This document shows, piece after piece, positions 4,296-63,037 of a DNA stretch of 64,000 bases. A program made the position numbers and the translations under genes. The notes below the pieces were generated by a model, which was not told the DNA's origin, made no database searches, and worked only from the letters and a program-made list of their open reading frames with translations. Every line of letters begins with the position of its first letter. Positions within the stretch are counted from its first letter, which is position 1. Origin of the DNA: Dicyema japonicum (lineage: Eukaryota; Dicyemida; Rhombozoa; Dicyemidae); NCBI GenBank assembly GCA_011109175.1, contig RDEW01000012.1, positions 970,552-1,034,551 of the forward strand, given 5' to 3'.

Positions 4296-5290
4296 ATTAT
4301 TATTATTATTGAAAATTAAAAATCACCGACAAATTAAATAACTAATAGCCGTCAGGTGATTCCGGCCGCCTCGAATAGCCATCTCATTCTTGCTCGATGT
4401 TCCTCCCGGATTCCAACGCATTTCCTGATTGGGCGTGGGTTTCTTACTTTTGGGGTTGGTAGTAAGGCTCCGGTTTTCCTCACTAATTTCTCAAATGGTG
4501 TAGGGTTTAGTGGTGTATGGGAAAACCTTTACACAGCCTTACTGGCCATTTTTGGAATATATTAATTTTTTCCATATTCGTGTTTGATAGTTTGGTTCCC
4601 CATGCAGCACACCCATAAGTCAGAGACGGTTGAATATACTGTACGTAGAGCGAGTCCAACTTTGTATTGAAACACCCCTTATATTGTCCAAAGAGTGTTT
4701 TAACAAAATTTAGCTTTCGTTGTGCCGAGGAGATAACGTTGTCGATGTGTTTGCTGAAGATCAAAAGTGGGTCGTATGTTACGCCCAGTATCTTGACCGA
4801 GTTGGTCGTGGGGATTGAGTTTCCATTTATGGTTACACATGGAGTGGAGTTTGTCAATTGTTGTATAAGACTTTTCGGGACTTGTATGTAGAATGTTCTT
4901 AACGAGCCAGCAGTTAATCGTCCAATGAAGCTTTTAGCCGGTATACAGCAGTATTAACGCACTGGTCTTTGACTGCGACGATTATATCATCCGCATATAT
5001 CAGAATCAGAGTATCGTCACTGGTAAGGGAGGGCATATCATTTTGGAATAGATTGAATAGGTGTGGTGACAGTGAAGATCCTTGAGGGACCCCATTTGGA
5101 AGGAACTTGGTCACTGACCTAGTTTTTCCAGCAGTCACTCTTCCTCTTTTTCCATTTAGGAAATTATCAATCCAGATTTTCAGGTTGTTTGGGATTTTTG
5201 GCGTAAAGATCTTCCTTATCAAAAGCTTTCTTGGGACAGTGTCAAAAGTTTTTTCTATATCGATCGAGCATATCAATGACTTCTTATAAG
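4296..5290 (-). pseudogene. APE-type LINE, RT domain to 3' tail
   Basis: On the minus strand, 5276-4914 encodes RT blocks with DIEKTFDTVPRKLL, GVPQGSSLSPHLF and the catalytic IYADDIIVAV. After a frame break, 4857-4507 encodes the thumb with ILGVTYD and the LTYGCAAWG block. The 3' untranslated end (4330-4520) is the reverse complement of 41050-41220, and an ATT tract at 4296-4311 is the tail. The endonuclease half is absent. Family relatives in the window are 43198-44660 and 49400-51330. Confidence 0.85.
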
Positions 5291-5395
5291 GTTTGCGTTT
5301 AGGCCAAAAATATAATTTTTTAATTTTCGCATAAAAAATAATATGTGCTTATAAAAATTATTTATTATTATACAGGGTTTTCCGATTTATTTAAT

Positions 5396-19812: not shown

Positions 19813-19913
19813 ATGATTAGGGTGGGACAAATTTGGTTCAATTTAACAATCTCATTGAAAAGGATTTTATTAATAACTTTTATTTTGATATTTTTGATGC
19901 AAAACTGACTAAG

Positions 19914-21047
19914 AAGAATGTGTCTATATTATCACTCCGTGTCAATTACTACTGAATGGAGATCAAGAAGTGATTTCAAAGTTAAAGAATGAAACAGACA
20001 AATCACGTTTGAGTAATATTGTGGTCACGAACTGCATTGAACACGCAAAATCAAGTGGATATTTTTCATATCCAATCTCTCAAGACGAGAGAGCTAATCC
20101 ACTGGCCTACCTTTTGATTGTTTTCAGGAACTCGAAGCAGGTAGAACAACTACTCAGAACGATTTACCGAACAAATAATCATTATTGCATCCACGTGGAC
20201 AAAAAATCCGATGCAGAATTTCTACAAAGTATTAAAAGTTTCACGAGTTGTCTCCCAAATGTGATTGTAATTAATACATATGACGTCGAATGGGGGACAA
20301 TGACTACATTGCTCGCAGAAATAAAATGCATGGAATTACTCTACGAAAGTTCGAGTGATTGGAAATACATAATAAATCTAACAGGGGAAGAATTCCCATT
20401 GAAATCAAATAATGAAATTGTTAGAATAACGAAAGCACTCAATGGGTCTAATTGGATGGAGAAGCCTGTAATATTACCGTTTGATTTGGGATCATTGCAG
20501 GTTAGACAGATATGAAAATAAGGCCAATAAGTTCGAACACGGAGTTACACTATACAAGGCAGGTTTACACGGTGTCTTCTGTCGGGGATTCGTCCACTTT
20601 ATATTGAAAAATGAAACTTCCTCTGAATTACTTAAATGGTTGGAAGACACATATATTCCTGATGAAACATTTTATTCAACATTAAACTATAATTCCAAAA
20701 TTTTGAAGGTCCCAGGATCATTATCAGGTAATATATTAAAATATTTAGCCCACATCGATCCTTTAAAGCTTGAACCACAAATAGAAAATCGTTACAAACA
20801 ATGGTATGAAGGCTGCTATGGCTTCTTTGTTCGAAGTGTATGTATTTTGGGAGCACAGGATTTACAATATGCTGTTAATAGTAAAGCTATTATCGTCAAC
20901 AAATTTTATGCAGAATATAATCCGTCTACTCTACAATGCCTTGAAAATTGGATTCGAATGAAGTCAATGAATATTATTGATGAGTTTGGAGACGACTACT
21001 TGGACGTTTATAGAAATCAAATTTTCGTAAAAATCATGTATGACTAA
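19914..21047 (+). CDS. GCNT1: Core-2-type beta-1,6-N-acetylglucosaminyltransferase (GT14)
   Basis: GCNT enzymes add GlcNAc in beta-1,6 linkage to O-glycan cores in the Golgi as type II membrane proteins. Exon 19914-20478 joins exon 20501-21047 across a 22-nt intron (20479-20500, GTTTGA...TTGCAG), restoring the conserved RYE segment. Visible family signatures: CQLLLNGDQEVI at the stem boundary, NPLAYLLIVF, LLRTIYRTNNHYCIHVDKKS, EWGTMTTLLAEIKCMELLY, WKYIINLTGEEFPLKSNNEI, and IPDETFYSTL, whose Glu matches the catalytic base. It ends near IQCLD-like LQCLENW. About 370 residues cover the whole luminal domain. The true start is not settled: the frame is open back to 19913 and a CTGACTAAG acceptor lies there; an ATG at 19813 in another frame encodes a basic-flanked hydrophobic segment (KRILLITFILIFLM) that would suit the membrane anchor, but I find no GT donor to join them. 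Which GCNT paralogue it is cannot be told. Otherwise frame-intact. Confidence 0.92.
20479..20500 (+). other. 22-nt spliceosomal intron in the GT14 gene
   Basis: Begins GTTTGATTT and ends ATTGCAG. Removing it keeps the protein colinear with GCNT enzymes (…VILP then LDRYENKANKF). An alternative 22-nt GT-AG pair at 20501-20522 also keeps frame but deletes the conserved RYE residues. Confidence 0.8.
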
Positions 21048-23513: not shown

Positions 23514-25997
23514 TCATTGATGAGTTTGGGTGATGACCTCATCATTCTTGAGTTTCCTACGGTTAATTTCCCAATTATTGTTAATCGCCATCGTTATTTG
23601 TTCAAACCCGTGTTTATATTCTACAAGCATGCTCTCTAAAGTCTTCTTCAGCGCAATCGTTTGGATGTACGCTCGGGTGATGGTCGTAATTCCAATGATG
23701 TCCATGTATGATTTGAAATACCTGGAGACAATTCCATCCCAGGTAAGAACAATTGGGAGTATCTTTACTTTGGCTTTGTAAATGATCTCTAGTTCACTCG
23801 CAAGAATGTCGTATTTATGTAGTTTTTCAACTTCGACAGCCTTGAGATTGTCCATTGCTGTTACTCCAATTTCAATTAGCCATATTTGGTTCATTTTCTT
23901 ATCGTACAAGAAAATGTCAGGCTTGTTATATTGGACTTTGGACTCCGTTGGAATGGTCGTATCAACTCGGATCTCGGCATGCTGATTTGTGATGATGCTT
24001 TGAATAGAATGTGACTTCAATTTTTTGGATTTTTTAAATCCAAATTTTCTAGATAAATGCATGTGAATGCATTTAACTATTTCATTGTGTCGTCTTGTAT
24101 AGTCTGAGTTTAGCATTCTGTTACACCTCGTAGCCAAATGATCGACAGTTTTTTTCGAGGAATTACAATGTGGACATTTTAGACCAAGATCCCGGAAAAA
24201 GATATTCCTATCTTGCAAAAGAAAGAACATCGCTTCAGACTTGGGAGAAATATTTCCATTTGTGATCCATGTAGACGATGATTTTATGTCAAATGTATCA
24301 TTCTCAAGTGATTCAAATAATATTGAATGTAGGCTTTTCTTTTTGATGATAGACAGGAGAGAGTTAATCTGTGAACTCTTTAGATTCTCCACAATGTCTA
24401 TGGTTGGGCCCATTTGGTATTTTACCCGCAGGAATTCTGTGATTGTGGCCATATGTGTTTTTCTTAGCTGTTCGGCCCACAGAATTCCAGCTTTTCTCAG
24501 AGAAATCTTTTTCCGCCTTTCAAGGCTTGTTTTAAACTCAAGTAGCATTTTTTCTGACTTAAAAGTAACTGATATCAGCCCTCTTCCCAGCGTACTCCTT
24601 GGTAAGTATAATCTTTCCTTGGAAGCCGGTTTCATGTGAATACCCAAACGCATAAGTAATTTTCTGACTAATCTATCAAATTCCTCGTATTCACCGGGTT
24701 CCATCTCGAGAAGACCAACATAATAATTAAGAAGGGATAGAGCATGTTCATTTATGGCTTTAAACAAATTGACCGAATTCAATTTCGTTTTTGACAGTTT
24801 TTCAATACGATCTTGCACCTCCTCTTTGATATTTTTAAGTACAACTTCTTTAACTACTTTGCTGGAATTGTCTTCTAACACCCCCAAATAGCGATAACTA
24901 TCCACTCCATCCATTAGTTTAGCATCATTCGATAGTAAATAACTATTTGTTGCGGACTTTTCAAAATTCTTTTCTAAGCCGGACAATTTAAAGTAAGCAT
25001 TCACATCTTTCATCATGCATGCCAGTGTCCCTTCCTCTTTTGCCAAAAGTTTCAAATCATCGATGAATAAGAAATGATTCGCAGAAAAAGTAAAAGAATT
25101 AGATTCAGCAGTATTGATAGACATGCTCGGATATTTTGCAGACAACATTCTGCTTAGTGGATCCAAAACAAATACAAATAATTGAGGTGATAGAGAGTCA
25201 CCTTGGAGTATTCCACGTTCAATATTAATCGTTCCCAATATCTTTTTCCCCAATCTTAATGACACACGCCAGTTTGGAATTATTGATATTACAAACTTGG
25301 TTATCCATTCTGGTAGTCCCGAGTTTTCCAGGATTTTAACAAGATACTCGTGACTCACTGAATCAAACGCTTTTCTAACATCAATCCATGCACAGAATAG
25401 TTTGTTTTCATGGGCTTTGTTAACACATCTGTTTAAAAGTGCCAATTCCTTTGCTCCTTGACAGTGTCGTTTTGTCCCAAGCTGATACTCAGTAATTAAA
25501 TCATAAGTTTCAGCATATTGTGCAATTTTTTCGTTTACACATTTCGTAACCAGCTTGTATAAGCACGGCATACATGTAATCGGTCTAAGATCCTTAGGGT
25601 CAACAGAGTTCTTCTTCTTTGGGATTAGGTATGTAATCCCCGTATAAAACCATCTTTTCGGTTGACTTTTCCCACTAATGATATCTCTGATCTCTTTAAA
25701 TAAATATTGATGAAGAGAATCCAACTTCTTGATAAAGAAGTTATATACGCAATCAACTCCGGGGGCCTTCCAATTTGGGAGGTACTCAATTAAATTTGAT
25801 ATAAAATTATCGTTTATATCAGAGTCTTGCTGTTCAACTCCCGTTATTCTCTTGTTCATTCCAAAACTCAAATCATTTTTATCCCTTTTTTCCCAAACCT
25901 CTGTCCAAAATTTAAAGCATTCGGATGTGTCAAAGCCATCAATGCACTCAATGTCAGAATCTGACTTTTGTTTTCTATAGAATGACCTTCTGTTCAA
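23514..25997 (-). CDS. R2-type LINE polyprotein: reverse transcriptase plus restriction-like endonuclease
   Basis: An uninterrupted 827-codon frame, the longest in the window. Order from the N-terminus: linker; RT blocks WKAPGVDCVYNFF, DPKDLRPITCMPCLYKL, YQLGTKRHCQGAKELALL, WIDVRKAFDSVSHEYL, GILQGDSLSPQLFVFVLDPL and the catalytic HFLFIDDLKLLAKEE (FIDD in place of the common FADD or YMDD); thumb with SYRYLGVLED; Cys/His knuckle CPHCN...DHLATRC; then KPDIFLYDKKMNQIWLIEIG followed by EKLHKYD, the PD...E...K pattern of the restriction-like endonuclease of R2, NeSL and related LINEs. The first ATG/TTG region has no N-terminal zinc fingers, so the copy may be 5'-truncated or rely on an upstream exon. 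A 20-bp tandem duplication (25999-26038) lies directly upstream and closes the frame. Whether it still moves, or is kept by the host, cannot be told from one copy. No rDNA flanks are visible. Confidence 0.93.
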   Translation of the reverse strand: MNRRSFYRKQKSDSDIECIDGFDTSECFKFWTEVWEKRDKNDLSFGMNKRITGVEQQDSDINDNFISNLIEYLPNWKAPGVDCVYNFFIKKLDSLHQYLFKEIRDIISGKSQPKRWFYTGITYLIPKKKNSVDPKDLRPITCMPCLYKLVTKCVNEKIAQYAETYDLITEYQLGTKRHCQGAKELALLNRCVNKAHENKLFCAWIDVRKAFDSVSHEYLVKILENSGLPEWITKFVISIIPNWRVSLRLGKKILGTINIERGILQGDSLSPQLFVFVLDPLSRMLSAKYPSMSINTAESNSFTFSANHFLFIDDLKLLAKEEGTLACMMKDVNAYFKLSGLEKNFEKSATNSYLLSNDAKLMDGVDSYRYLGVLEDNSSKVVKEVVLKNIKEEVQDRIEKLSKTKLNSVNLFKAINEHALSLLNYYVGLLEMEPGEYEEFDRLVRKLLMRLGIHMKPASKERLYLPRSTLGRGLISVTFKSEKMLLEFKTSLERRKKISLRKAGILWAEQLRKTHMATITEFLRVKYQMGPTIDIVENLKSSQINSLLSIIKKKSLHSILFESLENDTFDIKSSSTWITNGNISPKSEAMFFLLQDRNIFFRDLGLKCPHCNSSKKTVDHLATRCNRMLNSDYTRRHNEIVKCIHMHLSRKFGFKKSKKLKSHSIQSIITNQHAEIRVDTTIPTESKVQYNKPDIFLYDKKMNQIWLIEIGVTAMDNLKAVEVEKLHKYDILASELEIIYKAKVKILPIVLTWDGIVSRYFKSYMDIIGITTITRAYIQTIALKKTLESMLVEYKHGFEQITMAINNNWEINRRKLKNDEVITQTHQ

Positions 25998-25998
25998 C

Positions 25999-26038
25999 TC
26001 AAAATTTCGATTATCAGTTCAAAATTTCGATTATCAGT
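25999..26038. repeat. 20-bp tandem duplication upstream of the R2-type ORF
   Basis: AAAATTTCGATTATCAGTTC occurs twice in direct succession. It lies at the 5' boundary of the element's reading frame. Confidence 0.9.
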
Positions 26039-29655: not shown

Positions 29656-30865
29656 TGCGCCACATAGGTTTCCTGAAGGGATATCAGCGAGATTTACTTA
29701 AAATGGATGTCTCCGAAGTATTCCCTTGGGTAGAAGTGGATATCCGAAACTCTTCTCAAGATATGATTAAAAACCTTCTTTATGGAGGTTGATCCTTTCT
29801 TAGACAAATCGTAGGAAGTTATAGATAGACACTGGGGTCACTTAATCACAAGTTAATAAAATAGGTCATAAAACTGGGCTGCAGCAAAATACAGGGAAAT
29901 ATGAATTAAAAATGTTTACGTGGTTAATTGGTCGGAAGATTAGGGTGACAATATCCACTATTCCTATTTAGCTTATCCGTAGATGAAAGCATATGTCTTC
30001 TGTTTTCCCGTGAACATGGCGTGGTGTCAGACTCGGGTGATATCGGAAGCTTAGTTTAAGTGTCAGATGCAAAAACCCCATCTATTAATGCTTTCAGCAG
30101 CAATTTCCAGATATTCTAGAATTGAGATTTAATACTTGTATCAGTAAGCATAAAATTATAACTTTAATGCTCAAACTTAACTGACAGCCACATAATTTGA
30201 CTTAACAATCAGAACTAAAAATCTCTCCTGTAAAGCACTAATACTGGAGATAAAGATCTGTCCATTAAGTGATCGATTTGATATGCAACGCTTACGATAT
30301 TTCTCATTCATTTGACCCCACCACCCAACCTTCCCACTACTCAATCTGAGATCGTGCCTTAGAATCATGATTCCGTTCAAGTAGAAATCGTTTAATAAGA
30401 TAGAGTCTCTATCCAGATGGAAGAAAAGTCAGGGATCTCTTTACTTGCCATGGGCCACCAGGACTCGGTGTGAAAGTGTACAATTTCTGAGAGCGACCTG
30501 CCCTGTCTCTTAATGGTCGCCAGCTTCCTACATGTTAGCAAACCAGGAACTAGCAATTAAATTTTATAGGTTAATAAAAAGTATTACAGGTAAAATCACT
30601 CATAAAATTGCCTGAGAATCCTTTCAGGAATCCAGTGAATTACCTTTAATGATAATCTACCGAAAATTTTGACAGAAAAATGGGGACACGGAATAAATTC
30701 ACTTAATTACTCAGAACCCCAGGATCACCGAGAAAAACATATAATTGCAATGTATTTATATTTTCGATATAAAATAATCAAAAATAAATATTAATAATAT
30801 TTTATTTTAATTTTGCAAAAAATAATTTTAAATAAAATATTCAACATTTGAAATCAGTTAAACAA
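29656..30865. other. Mostly gene-free stretch with protein-like patches
   Basis: A plus-strand patch at 29702-29790 reads MDVSEVFPWVEVDIRNSSQD and another near 29970-30058 reads LSVDESICLLFSREHG. They could be exons of an unidentified gene joined by tiny introns, but I could not build one. The rest shows nothing. Confidence 0.3.
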
Positions 30866-31918
30866 ATGCGAGTCTGCTACCATAAGGATAATGAATTAAC
30901 GACTAGGATTCTCACAGTCCAAAGCTGTGTCGTAACCTCCAATGTAGGTTATAAAGCAGCAAAAAAAATTTTTACAGTTCACATAAAGTCTAAATTCTAG
31001 TTATTTGATGTTGAGTGCGACGGCATCCCTGTCTTAAATATCAGCAGTCACGGAGGTTTTCAACAAATTTAATTTTGCAGGCTACAAATTCAATTATGCA
31101 TTTGTGTACTCACAATCCGACCTCTGGTCCATCATCAATTGTTTGCGTATCAACTTTCCCTCTGGGTATCACTACATCCTCACAGGTTGCATTCCATTCT
31201 CAGTGTAGGATATTTATTCAGACCTTACATTTTGGAGGAAGTGTCGCTTATGATTGAAGCTCTGAAATATTATGAGTCAGATATAGTAGTCGGTATTTTC
31301 TCATTTTACTTTATAGTTTGCGATCCAGTAATAGGAGATAACGGCGAATCTGTTAATTTAATATTTTAATTACTAGTATGTGGATAGTCGATTGGGGAAC
31401 GCTACGGGATTGAGATGATGAAGTTCACTAATATTGTCACTCCCAACTTGTTCGAGCTAGAGTATTTCAATTTTTAATTTGACAAGAATGCTAACTCGGC
31501 GTGTCATAAAAAATGTCGACGAGGCCTTTAGTGCTTTAGAATTATTAAGCGATGGGTCCTTACGCCACCATACTAACAAGTATAGATACCCCAGATCACT
31601 GCCATTTAGTGTCCCTTCTCTGCTATTATTCGAGAGGTGAGAGTGCTTTGTTATTCTCAGGCGAATACCAGCACTATAAGATTCAATACCCTAGATACAC
31701 GAGCATTTCAGTGGAACCGGGGATGTGTTCAGTTCCCTGCTAATCGCATGGTTAGACAAGACACGTGATATCATCGTACCTTTAATATTTCATTGAAGGA
31801 TTCGTTCGAGCTCACAGTGAATTCTCTGCAAATGATTATTCACAAGACATATGTCAATGCAAAAAGTATTGAATTTATGATAATTTGCTAGAAGTTGGAG
31901 TTTCGACTCAAACCTTAA
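30866..31918 (+). CDS. PDXK: Pyridoxal kinase, ten exons with 17-26-nt introns
   Basis: Pyridoxal kinase phosphorylates vitamin B6 vitamers to make pyridoxal 5'-phosphate in the cytosol. The joined exons give RILTVQSCVVTSNVGYKAA (substrate-side start), ISSHGGY, YHYILTG, VVVCDPVIGDNGES, NIVTPNLFELEMLTRRVI, MGPYATILTS, FSGTGDVFSSLLIAWLDKT (GTGD with the catalytic Asp) and a short end KLEFRLKP before TAA at 31916-31918, in the order of animal PDXK. Introns: 30977-31000 (24), 31056-31080 (25), 31205-31221 (17, uncertain), 31293-31316 (24), 31352-31376 (25), 31462-31486 (25), 31637-31660 (24), 31776-31798 (23), 31866-31891 (26). Start chosen as ATG 30866, in frame with the first conserved block. 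Single-base frame breaks occur near 31389, 31551 and 31693, in the middle of conserved exons. Thus this is either a young pseudogene or contains consensus indels; introns and the catalytic site are preserved. Confidence 0.93.
31205..31221 (+). other. Candidate 17-nt intron in pyridoxal kinase
   Basis: GTAGGATATTTATTCAG: GT start, TTCAG end. Removing it joins LTGCIPFSV to PYILEEVSLMIEAL in the correct frame. An indel of one base with no intron would also restore frame but leaves five extra residues relative to animal PDXK. Confidence 0.5.
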
Positions 31919-31935
31919 ATTTAAATTTGGTTGAC

Positions 31936-32450
31936 TCATCTAATTGTATAACAGCCCCCAATATCATCTTTAAGGCTGAGAAATGTAACATTGAGTGAAA
32001 TAGTCTCCATGTCCCTAATTATGATTATTGATAAAATCCTAGTTCTTTTTATAACTGTTGACTTGTTCAGTGAATTTGCTAGGCCTTTAGTGATTCCTGA
32101 TAATCTGTTCGAGTTAATAGGAAGGTCAATTATGGGGAAGAGACCATTGACATGAATTATGCATAAATGTCGATAAGAAAACCATCTTGAAGAATCATTG
32201 GTCATGTCAAAATAATTCGCACAGAATTCGTTCACATAATTCTCATTCCATTGGCTAATTTATTTGTGATTGAATTTGGAGTGGTCCTGTGGTTCCATAT
32301 GAGGACTGCAACTTCGTCTATGAATATTATCTTCTCTCTGTGTTATGATTGGAGCATCACGCCATCAAATAATCTAAATTACTTGTCCGATTTTGCTCAA
32401 ATTGATATTGCCACCAAGTTACTCTCCGTTTTAGTTGACTGATAGTTCAC
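31936..32450 (-). CDS. Unidentified minus-strand coding segment
   Basis: A 99-codon frame (32235-31936) has a balanced composition, including HVNGLFPIIDLPINSNRLSG and TKGLANSLNKSTVIKRTR. Immediately upstream (about 32345-32245) another frame reads EKIIFIDEVAVLIWNHRTTP, whose IFIDE resembles the first catalytic Asp of Tc1/IS630 transposases. It could be one decayed transposase or an unrelated gene. It is convergent with the pyridoxal kinase gene, 18 bases from its stop. Confidence 0.35.
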
Positions 32451-38461: not shown

Positions 38462-38539
38462 TTGAATTATTATTTATTTATTCAAAATAGTAATTTAAAT
38501 GAATTTAAAATAATATAAAATTTAAATTAATAAAAAGAT

Positions 38540-41040
38540 TTAAAAAACCATCATTACACACTTTTTTGGCTGAGATGGTGACATGGCTCTTGAACTCAAT
38601 GTCTGGAAAACACAGTATCAAACCATTGGACTTCTCCCTTCTCACGTTTAACGTCAGGGGACTCTCTAGCGTTTGGAAACGGAAGGAATTGGTCGAGGAT
38701 CTTTCAAAATACAAGATTTCAATCGCCTGCCTTCAGGAGACCAAACTAATCAACGGGATCGAAGAACATCATGGGAATTTTAGACTAATCTTCCTTCCAG
38801 GTGGAAACAAGCAATATGGGCTAGGATTTGCCGTCAAGAATGATCTATCCAAGAGAGTCTGCCGATATTACAGTGTGAATGATAGAATCGGGGTGTTGCA
38901 ATTGAAACTGGATGATCTCAACCCGTCGAAGAAATATCTAACTATTATAAACGTTTACCCCCTTCACAGTGGATGGCTTAATAAAACCCTGAGGAGATTG
39001 ATGACTTTTACCAGTCTTTCTGCCATTTTCTCCAAGTATGATCTCTCAACATTAGTAATGATCGCAGGAGACCTAAATGCAAAAGCTGACACCCAGGTTA
39101 CGACCGATGAGACATTCATGGGAAGGCATGGTAGGGGGAAAAGAAATCTCCCGGGAACTCTACTAGCTACTTCTGTCAAACAAATAACCTATTTTTATGC
39201 AATACAGCCTTCATGCATCCAGCCAGACATAAATCTACGTGGTCGGGATATAGAACAAATCTCGAAGGGCGAGTGATAAATATGTACAACCAGATCGACT
39301 ATATAATATGCAGGCAAAAAGATCGAGGGATTATACTTGATGCACGAGCTTATGGTGGATCGGCGGAAATTAAAGGAAAGTGGCGGAAATTATCGCTGCC
39401 CACTTTGGAAAACTTTTCAATCCAAGGAACGACACTATCATCCTAGAACGAGGGAAATTGGACGTGGAAATCACACCATATGAAGTTGAACTTGCGAGTT
39501 CCAAATTGAAAAACAACAGGACTCCTGGCCCCGACGGACTCGGTGGTGAATTCTTCAAATATGGAACCCAAAAGCTGTATGAATGCATCGCTAGGATCCT
39601 GAATGAAATGTACTATTATGGTCACACGCTGACCCTGGGAGAGGGTATCTTGATACCTGTACAGAAGGCGAATAAACCAAGATCTAAGGTGGAGTACCTC
39701 CGTCTATACATATTAATGAATTCACTTCGAAAAATTCTGGCGAACATAACATTACAAAAGATGGAAGAACGCCTAGATACTTTTCTGTCGCTATACCACA
39801 GCGGATTCCGAAAAGGAAGATCTACTTCCAATGTTTTGTGGTCCCACAAGTGGAGATCTGCGGCCGTTCAAAAGTTCAAAATGTCTACAACCATCCTCGG
39901 AATCGACATCTAGAGGGCCTTCGACTCTGTCGACGACGGAGGCTAATACTGGTTTTGGAAAGTTTCCTAGATGCTTCCACTGTCAGAATGGCCACCACCC
40001 TCCTAGCTGATACTTGGCTCACTGTAAGAGTCGGGAGAGCCTTGTCTCGCCGATTTGAGACTACTGTTGGCACTCCACAGGAAAACCCTTTATTACCTAT
40101 ACTTTTTGTCATATACCTTGAAGCTGCTTACGGGAGTCAAAACCGATAATGGGTGAAAAGACAAACATTATTGCGTATGCTGATGACGTAGACTTTATTT
40201 TAAATGACAAAATACCGCTCACCCGGTTGATCGGAAAAGTGCCTGGAAGACTAGCCGAATTGTTCCTAACAGTCAATCCGGACAAGACTGAGGTAACTAA
40301 ACTCAAGAGGGAAGAAACAAGACGGATGAGTACTGGTGCAAGTGCAAAAAGCTTGGCTCCTTCCTAGGAGACCATGAAGAAATTACGAGAAGGAAAACCC
40401 TAGCACAAACTGCCCTCTCCAGATTAAAGAACACTGGCTCACAAAAAGGGCCTTGACATTATAACAAAAACTCGATTATACAATTCACTAGTGAAACCCA
40501 TACTACTATATAACGCTGGTACCTGGGCCTGCTCAAGAAATGAACTGAAGAGGCTTTAATGCGTTTCATAGAGACCAACTACGGCATATGATGTTCAAGA
40601 AATGAACTGAAGAGCTTAATGCGTTTCATAGAGACCAACTACGGCATATGATGTCGAAAGTAGTAATACAAGATGTCATCTAATCTTCTTTATAAGAGGA
40701 CGAAAACCTCAGAAATTTCTAATGAGATTCTGGATACACGATGGAGGCTTTTCTGCCATATTCTGCGACTGGACCTAAATGCCCCCGCGAACGTAGCCAT
40801 GGAGAATTACTTCATGTTGGAGGCCCCGTTTCCGTGTCGCCCAAGGACGACACTGGCAGTCGTTCTCGACGAGGACCTCAAAGAAATGGGACGGCATCTT
40901 GGAAGTGAAGAGGATCTTGACTGGTTGCGCACTGCGGCTTTGAATAGGAGGAAGTGGATGAAACTAACCAGTGATTTGCTAACTCGTGTTGCACATGCTT
41001 TGTCAAGTCCTATGACATAGCGATAAGTGCTCATAATAAT
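38540..41040 (+). pseudogene. RTE-like LINE: APE endonuclease and RT, frame-broken
   Basis: 38566-39276 encodes an APE-type endonuclease with LLTFNVRGLSSVWKRKEL, ISIACLQETKL, GLGFAVKN, VNDRIGVLQLKL, AGDLNAKAD and GRHGRGKRN. The end of the nuclease (usual SDH block) is deleted before the RT begins near 39380. RT blocks: NNRTPGPDGLGGEFFKYG, SGFRKGRSTSNVLWSHKW, ILGIDI then an in-frame stop, GTPQENPLLPILFVIYLEAA, IIAYADDVDFI (catalytic) and a 3' domain with RWRLFCHILRLDLNAPANVA and RPRTTLAVVLDEDL. It ends in a TAATAATAA tract at 41034-41042. At 40535-40660 a 66-bp segment is tandemly duplicated (GCGTTTCATAGAGACCAACT twice). Relatives: 41800-42060 and 52030-52575. Confidence 0.88.
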
Positions 41041-43197: not shown

Positions 43198-44660
43198 ACT
43201 AACTAATTAGGTGATCCCAATCACTTCGTCTGGTCTTCTGATGACCCAACCGCATTCCGGAAGCGCCTGTTCTTCCTTCTGCATAGGAATTCAATCGGCG
43301 TGCACTTTTTTATAACCGACTAAAATTTCTCTGCATGGGGCACCTTTTCCTTGAATGGGTTTCCCAATTTCTTGCAAAACGCAAGAAACCCTGGACATTT
43401 CTCACCGTCGCCTCCTCTGAAAGCAGACTGGGAACGGATAGAAGAAATGGCGAATCTCCAGGCAGAATAGGCATATTCAATCGTCGTCGCAATTTCTTGG
43501 AAATATACTTTGCTGATACAAGCAGTAGGAGGGAAGGGGCTCTTCTTTACGATGGCTTTTAGGACGTTCCATTTTTGAGGACCATTGGCTAGCACCTCCG
43601 ACGTGTGACTGGCAAACGTCATAAGAGAGTCGAAAATAACTCCAAGGATCTTCTGGATTTGTGTATAAGGGATAGGAATGTTTCCGAGGAATATCTCAAG
43701 TCCACTTTTAAATCTTCTGTCCGTAGTAAATAGCGTGAACTGAGACTTGGATGCAGACACAGACAGCAAATTCATGGATAGCCAGTCACACACCTGGTTA
43801 AGGTGTGACTGAACCACCGCCACAGCCCTGGAGGGAGATTTGTCCTTGAGAGGAGACAGAGGGGAGCCTTGAGGGACCCAATTGGGGAGTAGTCTTGATT
43901 TTGAAGTGGTTTTGTCAATCCGGACCCTTCCGTGTCGCCCAGTTAAGAAATTTTCCAGCCATAGCTCGATGTTCGTATTTAGGTTGGAATTAAAAATCTT
44001 TTTCGTTAGGAGTTTCCTCGGAACAGAATCAAAGGCCTTCTGTATATCGATGGATACTAAGGTCCGTAAGTATGTTCTCATGTTGAAGCCGTCAGTAATA
44101 AACTGGAAGATAGAACCAAAATGAGTTGTTGTAGAACGGTCTGCCCTGAAGCCATGTTGAAATTCTGGTAGATGTAGAACAGGAGAGATACGCATTAATA
44201 CAAGCATTTCCACCCCTTATGATAAAACACAAGTTATTGAGAGGGGGCAGTAAGAGAACGTCTTTTGGTTTTCCAGGCTTTAGAATTGGTGTAATCAGGG
44301 AGTTCTTCCATATATTAGGTAGCGTATAGTAGTTGATATAGTCGTTGTACAGTCTTGATAGTATGGCCCGTGCCTGAGGTCCAAGGTGTATGAGATGAAT
44401 AGTGCAAATACCGTCGGGACCACAAGCGCGAGTGGGACGTAGCAATTGAATAGGCTTGTCAACATCATGGGGGTGAAGAAGTGGAATACGGTTCTTGTTG
44501 CGGCCCGCGCCGTCCACATGAGTAGAGCGAGAAAAATCTTTATGGCTGATCGATACGTAGTACTTCATAAGCTTGTTTGCAAGTTTGCGAGCGGGTTCCG
44601 AAGCGATGCGGGTAACGCCCTCAGTACCGCTATCCTCCTCATTGATAAGGCTATTGATCC
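43198..44660 (-). pseudogene. APE-type LINE with in-frame loss of the catalytic YADD block
   Basis: Minus strand: 44568-44092 carries ACGPDGICTIHLIHLGPQAR and WKNSLITPILKPGKP. 44213-43320 (297 open codons) carries FQHGFRADRSTTTHFGSIFQ, IDIQKAFDSVPRKLLTKKIF and PNWVPQGSPLSPLKDKSPSR, running straight into VVQSHLNQVCDWLSMN. In relatives, LLFNLYxSD...YADDITVAV stands between SPL and KDKS, so roughly 40 residues containing the active site are cleanly missing while the frame stays open. Thumb and ILGVIFD follow. The 3' end has ACTAACTAATTAGGTGATCC (43198-43217). A catalytically dead copy. Confidence 0.85.
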
Positions 44661-44944
44661 TTCTTAGCGTTTTTCAAAATGCGGCGCAAGAGTTTTTTTG
44701 ACATAGTCGTAGGTAATGTCTGATTAGTTGAAAAAAAGGTTAATCACCACAAGAATTAATTATATTAATAATAAAATTAACAGTGATTTAGTAATCTGAT
44801 TTTAAAATACTGGTTTGCCATACTAAAATTATACTTTTGGATCATAAAATGGGATATATCGATGGGTGATCATTCTGTTGGATTAAAAGGACTAATAATC
44901 GAGTTATGATGCCAAAAATCCAAAAAAAATAATGTGCAATACCT
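44661..44944. other. AT-rich stretch
   Basis: Nothing recognised. Confidence 0.4.
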
Positions 44945-59098: not shown

Positions 59099-59742
59099 CG
59101 GATGAACATTGCTAACATAGTTAGCAAGATCATTGTATTTTCTATTAATCGAGTGATCCCAGAACGATAAATAATAATTTTAAACAACCAATACAACAAT
59201 CAATAATATACTTTCATCAAAAAATCCATTAGAACAGTAAAACTTATATTAATGAACTCAATAAAGTCACTTTTGCAATACATGCTTCACGAAATTAGGC
59301 TCTAAATGAATTAATGAAAATTTTTATTACAAGGTCTATTATGCCTTGCAAGCATTAAACACTCAATGAAAGTTACCCCTAATGATTGCGACACAAATAT
59401 TGTGGAAGAGTCATCTTGTCATTCTAGGGTCTACCTTTAGCAGTCCAGCAAGCCGAAAAAATATATTATTTTCAGACAAATGACTAAAATCTGTTCCTTC
59501 GCTGCTAGCAAAACACAAAAAATGAAGTTAGACCGCTGTGGATGAATCAGACCAATTAAAGTGATTTTAAATATTTAATTTACTAGTTAAAAATAGGCAT
59601 TATATTATCGATCATTCATTTAAAAAAGAATTTTTTCATTAAAATAAAAGCATTCTAAATCTAAAATATATAATTTTAAAAAATAAAAAAATAAAAAAAA
59701 TATATTTTAAATTAAATTAAAATTTCATCTTACTGTGGTTCG
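59099..59742. other. AT-rich stretch upstream of NRDE2
   Basis: No gene seen. ATTAATCGAGTGATCCC at 59145 recalls the LINE 3' motif but has no LINE body beside it. The last 60 bases, A/T-only runs, precede the NRDE2 start. Confidence 0.4.
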
Positions 59743-62700
59743 ATGGGAGTCAGTTTTGAAAATGATTCTTCGATCCCAGGTTTACCACGATTCATCAATC
59801 TAGAACTTCAAAATCTGGATTGGCTTGTCAACAAAAGCTTCACCCCCTCCTCAGTCAAAGCCAAACTCCATGCTCCCCCGAAATTAGATAAAAGTCTTCA
59901 TTATTAATATATCGAAGGTCCAGTGGACTTTGAAATAAACAGAAAGATGGTCAAATCTAATCTTGGTGGTCTCTACAAGTATGATGTCCCTGAATACAAG
60001 TCCCCTGCTCCAAAAAAACAATTAAACACGAAATTTTACAGCCAGGAAGTTATCCCTAAATCTCTTCGTTATTTTTCTTCAAAATCCGAGAAAATCATCC
60101 GCGAAAATTCTAGCCAAATTGACGACTCATCAATTTTGCTTTCATTGGGTCCCAAAACAGCTGAAATGAACAAATCCTGCCTAGAAAGCCCCCAAGACTG
60201 TGAAAAATGGCTGACCCTGCTTAAACTACAGGACGATGAGTTTGTGAGTCACTATGACTCCTCTGAACATTCAGGGATGCAACACAGACGACTTGTGGAA
60301 CGGAAATTGGCCATATTAGTACGTGCTATTGAGTTCAACAGTGAAAATTTGATGCTTGTCCTTGAACGACTCCGTCTACTTGAACAGATCGAAGACCACG
60401 TGACAGTTAGAAGACAGTATGACCAGCTATTGTTGACTCAAACCAGCCAACCCCTGTTTTGGGAGAGATATATTGGATTTGTGAAGGTAACTGATGGTTG
60501 GACGTTGTAGAGCAGCTCTGTTGCTAATTTTAGCTTTCTTAGAACTGCAAGACTCTATGAGAAGGCTATAAGTACTCTACTGGCTGCGAAGAGGAGGAGG
60601 ATTACTGCTCATGACTATGCTGTTTTTGGTATGCTTTGTTTTTATTTCTACGTGGTTTTCGGGGTTATATGCTTACTTGCTTATTGAAGAGGAAATTTAC
60701 TATTATTTGTATTATTGCTAAATAAGGAGGGAGATTTTGTATTTGCTCTATTATTAAAATTTTTATGTTTGTATTTTTTTATTTATTAAAACGGGATATT
60801 TTATCAAATTGTGTATTATTTACTTTTGAAAGCGGGAAAATTCTTAAATATTTTTGCATTGTTTATTAAGCGGGCAATTCTGTCATTATTTATATTATTA
60901 TCTTCCTTAATGATAACCTCAAACGTGTAGTATCCCTCATAACCCAACTACCATAATTATCTTACTATTTATGTTTAGAACTAATAATATCATATATTGA
61001 CTTTATGACAAATTGTGGATATTTGGAACGTTCTATCACAATCATACAATGTCTATTAGAGTTCAATACCAAGACAACCTCCTTTCTCTCAAGGTCACTC
61101 ACTCCTCAACTTTTGATTCGTTTTGACCTCTTTTTCCAGTCTGGACAACCGCTAATTGGGCAACAGGACTCTAATGGATGGGACAAGTTTTATCTGTCAC
61201 AGAACTCTCGACAAGATCCCATCCAGGAGAACCTCCCATTCGACCGTGATGACATTAACCGGAATAAATTGTGGATTTACCTCGAAAGACTGAGAGATTA
61301 CAATCACTGGCTGCCTCTCAGAGACCAATACCTTATTGATGAGTGTGAGGACGTCGACAGGCTCTGTTCTTTCAGTGATGTCCAGACCGTCCTATGTCAT
61401 ATCGAAGAAACTGATTACTTGACCAGTCTGGCACACGTGGCTGCCAATACTGTACTTCGATGTCCCCGATTCTCAACCGAATTGGACTTTTCCATTAACA
61501 ACGACGACTTTGAACGGATGTTCTTTTACAAACTTGTCCACCACTTCGGAATCACCCCAGATGGAGTCAATGGGTCTCTCCAGTTTGTCACGAACATGGC
61601 TGAATCCCTGGAAGTCTTTAACGTGGACTTGGTTACCTCCCTTTATAAGAATAATCTTATAAGGGAATTTATTTTGACTGAAAAGCTTGCTTATAACTCT
61701 CATGATGATTCAAAATACAGTTCCGTGAAGAAAATGACCAAACATTTGCTAAGCAAACAAATATTCCGCAATTCTCTGCCACTCTACAGTTTCTACATGT
61801 TCACGGAGTTCCTTGAAGGCAATCTGAAGCACGCCCGTAAACTCTTCTACTCAGTGACTCAGGGATTCTCCCAATCAGATAGATTGGGCTTCCTCATAAA
61901 AACTCAGAAAGTGACCCAGCTATACGACTTCCTTGCCCAATTCATAGAACTGGAACTTGGCTTCTCGTCATTCTTTTTCACTCAGAACAACGCCATTCTT
62001 GAGAGAAAATGCAACAAATTTGCTACCTCAGAGCCTACGTCAGCAGAAGTCGATGCTTTGAAGGCACTTTGCATTGTCTCCCTCGTGTGGAATATCGAGG
62101 ACAACTTCTCTGTTAACCTATTAGACAGGAATACTTCCATTTCCGTTAAAAATATCATCAGTGAGGGTATTTCCTCCACGACCAATCTTCAAGCTTCTAG
62201 ATTGTTCTCAAAGATCCCTGAAGGTCATGGAAATTCTTCAATTTGTCACTGCCACGGGATTTTCAGTTTACTTGTGAATGGGTGGGACAACTGTGAGATA
62301 ACATATTTGAGTCATTTGAGGATAAACCACTCCAACGACTTGTAAGGCATTTTATGTGCCTGATTTGATCCCTTTTTTATCAGAGGAAGTTAACGGCCTC
62401 CAAAGTTGCAGCTTTGATCCACGAATGCATTCCTTCGCTCCCAATGAGTTCTCTCTGCTTTCTCTTATCATTGAGGTTAATTCCACGTTTCTCCACGCTC
62501 AAAGGTATTTATATGACTTATTGCAGAGCTCGGAACGCCTTCCTTGCTGCCAGGCATCAAAAAAGGTCTCCACAGATCATAATAATGCACATTTTGTACG
62601 AACTCGAGGATCTGAATGCTCTAGTGGTTTGTTTTGTTTACCAACATTTAGTCCTCCCCAACGGATTGGACTCATCAACAGAATACGCAAGTTGTACAAC

Positions 62701-63037
62701 TATTTTTGTGTTTTGCCTGAGTCTGGGTCATTTCCCCTTATTTGGCGACTTTTTTTGAAGTTTGAGGTAACTTTGATGTTGAATTGTTTAGAATGAGTTT
62801 GGTACGAAGAATGACCTTAATTCTGAGTATTTCCGAGGTATTCAGATTTGTCCATGGTGTAAGGTTTGGTTGGTTATTGAGTAAAGAATTTGTGTATGGA
62901 TTATTTGGTATTCACCTGGGAATTTGGATGAGGTTGTAAGTGTGATGGTGGATAAGGGAATTCGTGTTAGGGTCCCAATTGAGGAGATTGAATTACTCAT
63001 TGGAATTGAAATGAGGAAAATTGAATTGGACTATTAA
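59743..63037 (+). CDS. NRDE2: NRDE2, nuclear RNA exosome regulator, multi-exon
   Basis: NRDE2 is a nuclear HAT/TPR-like repeat protein that binds the MTR4 helicase and restrains exosome-mediated RNA decay. Blocks in order: LQNLDWLVNKSF at the N-terminus (start ATG 59743); ESPQDCEKWLTLLKLQDDEF; ERKLAILVRAIEFNSENLML; FWERYIGFVK; SVANFSFLRTARLYEKAIST; CGYLERSITIIQCLLEFNTK; GWDKFYLSQ; LINRIRKLYNYFCVLPESGS; FPLIWRLFLKFE; ICPWCKVW; GIRVRVPIEEIELL. All match human NRDE2 in order. Introns placed: 59894-59917 (24 nt, or 30), 60487-60510 (24), 60629-60978 (350, far longer than the rest), 62505-62526 (22), 62767-62791 (25). The junction near 62342-62390 is unresolved, and those near 62622-62650 and 62860-62890 each miss by one base. 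The basic N-terminal region between LDWL and the first HAT repeat is much shorter than in vertebrates. Confidence 0.92.
60629..60978 (+). other. 350-nt intron of NRDE2
   Basis: Phase-1 GT-AG intron (GTATGC...TGTTTAG). Its exons meet as DYAVFELIISYIDF, matching the family. It is about 15 times longer than neighbouring introns, and is AT-rich with ATTATT-type runs, so it has probably been expanded by an insertion. Confidence 0.7.

Follow-up and report, generated by a model that had tools for sequence, protein, structure and literature searches.

The pyridoxal-kinase-like gene copy and its introns

The window, by which we mean the whole 64,000-nt stretch of DNA that was analyzed, carries a pyridoxal-kinase-like gene copy on its plus strand. 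Two pieces of this gene, read through their introns, matched pyridoxal kinases of the mammalian type in the PDB (E 1.5e-13 and 3.6e-13), and the homology to human pyridoxal kinase (PDXK) is colinear along nearly the whole length, GTGD included. Protein family and colinearity are common to both, but the window copy is divergent and frame-slipped, and it reads ISSHGGY where the human protein has FSNHTGY, thereby lacking the threonine. The gene and its predicted introns are as follows; the C numbers denote paralogs that share an intron position.

30866..31998, plus strand: copy of a pyridoxal-kinase-like gene with about ten exons averaging 91 nt, from an ATG (assumed start) to a TGA
30977..31000, plus strand: intron 1, 24 nt, phase 0; both queries; position common to C110 and C148
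31056..31080, plus strand: intron 2, 25 nt, phase 1; both queries; position common to C101, C110, and C148
31186..31208, plus strand: intron 3, 23 nt, phase 1; both queries; only in the window copy
31293..31316, plus strand: intron 4, 24 nt, phase 1; both queries; position common to C101, C110, and C148; readable through without a stop
31352..31376, plus strand: intron 5, 25 nt, phase 0; both queries; position common to C101, C110, and C148
31462..31486, plus strand: intron 6, 25 nt, phase 2; both queries; position common to C101, C110, C148, and C116
31637..31660, plus strand: intron 7, 24 nt, phase 1; C110 query, not human query; position common to C110, C148, and C116; readable through
31776..31798, plus strand: intron 8, 23 nt, phase 0; both queries; position common to C110 and C148
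31866..31891, plus strand: intron 9, 26 nt, phase 1; human query only; ambiguous

The introns were placed by a frameshift-tolerant dynamic-programming spliced alignment of region 30800-32100 to human pyridoxal kinase, in which the intron penalty was flat for any GT..AG of 15-120 nt. The eight GT-AG introns picked by this alignment measure 24, 25, 23, 24, 25, 25, 23, and 26 nt and have their first bases at 30977, 31056, 31186, 31293, 31352, 31462, 31776, and 31866. With the C110 paralog as query, seven of these eight introns were recovered together with the additional 24-nt intron at 31637-31660, whereas 31866-31891 was taken as exon at the price of a fourth frame slip, which is why the last intron is ambiguous. 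The window copy is thus predicted to carry eight or nine introns, all of 23-26 nt, and seven of their positions are common to the window copy and its paralogs.

A preliminary description of this locus had listed nine GT-AG introns, eight of them of 23-26 nt and one of 17 nt. For the eight, the spliced alignment arrived at the same number and size range. A ninth intron is again supported, now as the 24-nt segment at the paralog-shared position 31637-31660, while the total depends on the ambiguous 31866-31891. We found no place for the 17-nt intron: four 17-nt GT..AG strings occur in the gene (at 31031, 31205, 31243, and 31515), and none of them was used by the alignments. The earlier estimate that the gene is split about every 85 nt is close to the exon average given above.

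GT-AG boundaries were required to restore the homology, as is characteristic of U2-type introns. With the human query, GT-AG ranked first among 47 distinct dinucleotide pairs with a score of 230, although the margin was narrow, as the 47 other runs (one pair was run twice) gave a mean of 158 +/- 21 and a best score of 223. With the C110 query, GT-AG clearly won, being top of 47 pairs with a score of 419, whereas the 46 others had a mean of 309 +/- 18 and a best score of 352. GT-AG also came first for the C101 copy (444 versus 393) and for the first 260 residues of CCT1 (809 versus 763). When GT..AG distances were counted in the window without homology, there was no clear peak; the window is gene-poor.

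Two further gene candidates lie in the window at 19821-21026 (plus strand) and 59716-63031 (plus strand). In the models of the gene finder, both have introns of 22-24 nt, and the second has others of 34-40 nt as well. By eye, we take the first to be glycosyltransferase-like and the second to be a HAT-repeat protein. Long open frames are found at 23514-26018 (minus strand), 38509-39913 (plus strand), 43320-44673 (minus strand), and 4507-5348 (minus strand), which fits a repeat-rich genome; judging by their motifs, these are presumably retroelement reverse transcriptases.

Paralogs and reading-frame slips

Pyridoxal-kinase-like sequences form a family of at least five loci in the genome, namely the window copy (30866-31998), C101 (L001/L013), C116 (L010), C110 (L011), and C148 (L012). 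A genome search with Pfam PF08543 returned the C101 copy only and missed the window gene with its short exons. C101, which has the top score of the family against the human enzyme, has zero slips and introns of 23, 22, 20, 21, 18, and 24 nt. Its last intron (24 nt) was positioned manually, a few codons off the site in the paralogs, and its 18-nt intron is readable through and was not relied on, yet it is counted in the sample of 90 introns described below. The divergent C110 copy is split by seven introns of 23-26 nt; leaving aside its first codons, it is slip-free to the stop once an intron at 1843 is recognized. The two remaining copies are visibly broken, C148 by five slips and C116 by a truncation, one slip, and stops.

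According to the preliminary description, removal of the introns restores a colinear kinase. This was too optimistic, as the spliced reading frame is still interrupted by three slips, each of one or two bases, so that the copy does not read as an intact pyridoxal kinase:

31386..31396, plus strand: first reading-frame slip; both queries
31548..31554, plus strand: second reading-frame slip; both queries
31693..31706, plus strand: third reading-frame slip; both queries

Extra introns were considered as a cause of the slips and rejected; the best slip-free model, which requires introns of 19, 36, and 44 nt, scored 196 versus 230 and kept a stop codon. As the three slips persist after intron removal, the window copy is either decayed or mis-assembled.

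In one reading, to which we give somewhat less than an even chance, the gene in the window is intact and its slips are due to base-level errors of the assembly. After intron removal, the copy has no in-frame stop outside the slips. Clear one-base slips are also found in CCT5, CCT7, and Prp8, which must work; CCT3 and Prp8 add two that are less certain, and Pax6 two more. The assembly thus contains some base-level errors or alleles. The density of slips in the window copy, however, exceeds that of other genes, with three per about 0.93 kb versus three clear ones per about 12.7 kb (lengths partly rounded by hand), which has a chance of about 0.0015, or, calculated by hand, of about 0.005-0.01 when Pax6 and the two uncertain slips are added. 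Moreover, the contrast of the slip-free paralogs C101 and C110 with the broken C148 and C116 is the pattern of a decaying family.

This excess and the state of the sister copies also speak for the view that the window copy is a pseudogene, in which case its introns would be relics that by themselves say nothing about present-day splicing. Assembly errors, on the other hand, can imitate decay. We consider the pseudogene view slightly better than an even bet and lean slightly toward decay rather than assembly error. Even then, most of these intron positions recur, with similar sizes, in the slip-free copies, and essential genes hold similar introns. The conclusion on splicing is for this reason independent of the window copy.

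Ultra-short introns in other genes of the genome

To the pyridoxal kinase copies (nine introns in the window copy, six in C101, seven in C110), we added Pax6 (six), CCT1 (seven), CCT5 (eight), CCT3 (five), CCT7 (eight), and the splicing genes Prp8 (20, in two protein stretches), U2AF1 (six), U2AF2 (six), and SF1 (two). These 12 genes are conserved genes that were chosen, not drawn at random. A 19-nt intron of CCT3 was dropped, as a 23-nt alternative was found by hand, and so were two introns of U2AF2, 29 and 123 nt long, that lie beside the RS region and were unreliable. The counts exclude the introns of the Pax copies C101, C122, and C1, of the pyridoxal kinase copies C148 and C116, and of five chaperonin loci (L032, L035, L038, L039, and L040) that are gene-finder models only.

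The resulting 90 introns have a median of 23 nt, and 81 of them are 22-26 nt long; the others measure 18, 20 (two), 21 (four), 31, and 68 nt. Ultra-short predicted introns are the rule in the modeled genes, those of the splicing machinery included. With the 68-nt intron in U2AF2 and the 31-nt intron in Pax6, the set is not uniformly ultra-short. The U2AF2 gene (L047 on C114) has its single 68-nt intron amid others of 22-23 nt, and this could be a regulated intron.

In principle, some of the segments could be short coding insertions that are read through. Of the 76 introns tested, which comprise the sample apart from the U2AF and SF1 genes, six are indeed a multiple of three in length and free of in-frame stops. 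These six include the 18-nt intron of C101, which is the shortest of all, and two of the window gene, at 31293 and 31637. The remaining 70 cannot be read through and, on this reasoning, must be removed, because the lengths of 51 are indivisible by three and break the frame and another 19 hold an in-frame stop. The lengths are also spread evenly over the three modulo-three classes (27, 25, and 24), and GT-AG scored best in the dinucleotide-pair controls, so that we regard read-through insertions as very improbable. Among the introns that must be removed, the shortest are two of 20 nt, one each in Prp8 and C101, and we take this length as the secure minimum. The earlier suggestion that the introns of this organism leave very little room for the splicing signals is thus borne out well beyond the window, as far as the gene models can tell.

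Splicing machinery and splice signals

U1, U2, and U2AF homologs had been proposed as a check, and they are present in the same genome. For U2 snRNA, there were 25 matches, 16 of them of full length and above 110 bits, and the GUAGUA branch-pairing region was found in all four that were read. U6 snRNA gave 10 matches, nine of them over the cut-off, with ACAGAGA in six of six read. The 11 matches for U1 snRNA were all under the Rfam gathering score (best 69.0 versus 69.5); in two of the three loci read (L042-L044), the 5' end that pairs with the donor is ACUUACCUG, and in the third it is ACUUACUUG, one base different. Beyond the 5' end, the U1 loci look divergent, while U2 and U6 score strongly. 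The genome carries U1-, U2-, and U6-like genes with the donor- and branch-pairing regions expected of a U2-type machinery. Genes for U2AF1, U2AF2, and SF1 were found as well, and Prp8 has 75-94% identity to PDB Prp8 over the aligned blocks. For short human introns, RBM17/SPF45, Smu1, and RED are reported as factors.

The splice signals themselves are short. Beyond the GT, the donors are weak, with A or T at position 3 in 88% of 76 introns, and the 3' splice sites are mostly TAG. In 73 of the 89 introns shorter than 40 nt, a TNAY motif places its A 6-11 nt from the 3' end. Shuffled introns gave 40.6 +/- 4.7 and rotated ones 51.1 +/- 3.9, and none of 500 controls of either kind reached 73. At 12-17 nt from the 3' end, which served as a positional control, TNAY occurred in 40 of 89 introns, and the excess was absent. 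The count did not depend on single gene families, as it was 55 of 69 without Prp8 and 58 of 67 without pyridoxal kinase. In the window gene, seven of the nine introns have the motif at 6-11 nt; it is absent from those at 30977 and 31186.

On this basis, an ordinary major (U2-type) spliceosome would be at work in the examined genes, removing introns of about 23 nt. Each intron would offer a GT with a weak A/T-rich donor, usually a TNAY whose A lies 6-11 nt from the 3' end, and mostly a TAG. In a 23-nt intron, the distance from the donor to the branch A would then be about 12-17 nt, with the 3' splice site directly behind. It is plausible that the splice sites are first recognized across the short exons of about 90 nt. 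That the RNA is spliced at these junctions, that TNAY is the branch point, and that recognition begins at the exon are what we infer from the genomic sequence.

Dicyemid affinity of the genome

Four paired-box loci are present in the genome. The Pax6 gene on C13 (L028), once spliced, had Dicyema acuticephalum Pax6 as its best match (70% identity over 90%, E 5.2e-108), and the second match, among the best 120 of 451 matches, followed at E 4.0e-87. Aligned to the D. acuticephalum protein, the gene has six introns of 24, 23, 25, 21, 24, and 31 nt. Those in the paired-box/homeobox part (24, 23, and 25 nt) are in phases 0, 1, and 0, and the introns a, c, and d of D. acuticephalum Pax6, for which seven introns are published, are likewise in phases 0, 1, and 0 (PMC2222250). 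The two Pax6 slips relative to D. acuticephalum include one in the paired box; near the same residue, a slip is also seen in L029, the Pax copy of C101.

As Pax6 is only 70% identical, the genome belongs to a species other than D. acuticephalum. Its size of 64.67 Mb and the GC content of the window of about 0.366 (mean over 16 rows, taken by hand) fit D. japonicum, with 67.5 Mb and 36.7% GC (PMC6736024). Pyridoxal kinase itself was not informative as a placement marker, as its 55 matches included no clear neighbor. Introns of similar size are published for Paramecium and Trichomonas, and one might think of another short-intron lineage, that is, a ciliate, nucleomorph, microsporidian, or trichomonad. 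With four Pax loci, a Pax6 by far nearest to that of Dicyema, and Prp8 and chaperonins that are readable with the standard code, such an origin is highly improbable.

Comparison with published introns

Ultra-short introns have been known since 2007 for dicyemids, which are tiny parasites among the mesozoan animals, and they are short for animals. The 16 introns of D. acuticephalum published then have a mean of 26.2 +/- 1.9 nt (PMC2222250), a median of 27 nt was given for Dicyema sp. in 2019 (PMC6543705), and the D. japonicum gene models have a mean intron of 38.2 nt (PMC6736024). The Dicyema species belong to the same phylum and share with the present genome short spliceosomal introns, several of them per gene, and the phases of three Pax6 introns. 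The present sample, although differently chosen, is slightly shorter (median 23 nt, secure minimum 20 nt), shows a positional branch-like signal, and has six Pax6 introns instead of the seven published. Neither the branch signal nor the smaller size turned up in the open-access papers searched, and a survey of 2008 that analyzed 41 Dicyema introns by another method detected no branch signature.

The introns of the unrelated ciliate Paramecium tetraurelia are alike in size, with 20-35 nt and a mean of 24.8 nt (as cited in PMC2222250). In the Bigelowiella natans nucleomorph, whose genes are dense, the spliceosomal introns are likewise ultra-short and of uniform size, but they measure 18-21 nt (as cited in PMC2222250) and belong to a relic endosymbiont nucleus. 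The introns of the protists Stentor (15-16 nt) and mikrocytids (16-17 nt) are also extreme in shortness, but shorter and narrower in size; PMC9505925 lists U2AF1, U2AF2, and SF1 for Stentor. As shorter introns, of 15-21 nt, are published for Stentor, mikrocytids, and the nucleomorph (PMC12316389, PMC10245619, PMC9505925, PMC2222250), the preliminary description overstated its case in placing the introns of the window gene close to the physical minimum.

Implications

Taken together, the sequence evidence points, with a probability of about 90% in our estimate, to a dicyemid whose major spliceosome removes introns of about 23 nt, the window gene being one of at least five loci, with eight to nine introns, and decaying or mis-assembled. 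It is an open bet, with equal chances on both sides, that in this dicyemid an ordinary animal spliceosome with U2AF1, U2AF2, and SF1 handles introns kept at 20-26 nt by the donor and the weak TNAY, that dicyemids do have a branch signature, contrary to the 2008 survey, and that this lineage may have the shortest intron population among animals.

With these data, the published dicyemid trait extends to another dicyemid, and a positional branch-like signal is added that lariat sequencing can test. In structural models of the spliceosome, there is scant room among donor, branch, and acceptor. An animal that combines U2AF1, U2AF2, SF1, and a very conserved Prp8 with introns of 20-24 nt in essential genes would be a natural test of minimum spacing. 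The dicyemid would also be a natural test of recognition across exons, with proteins that resemble the human ones much more closely than ciliate or nucleomorph proteins do.
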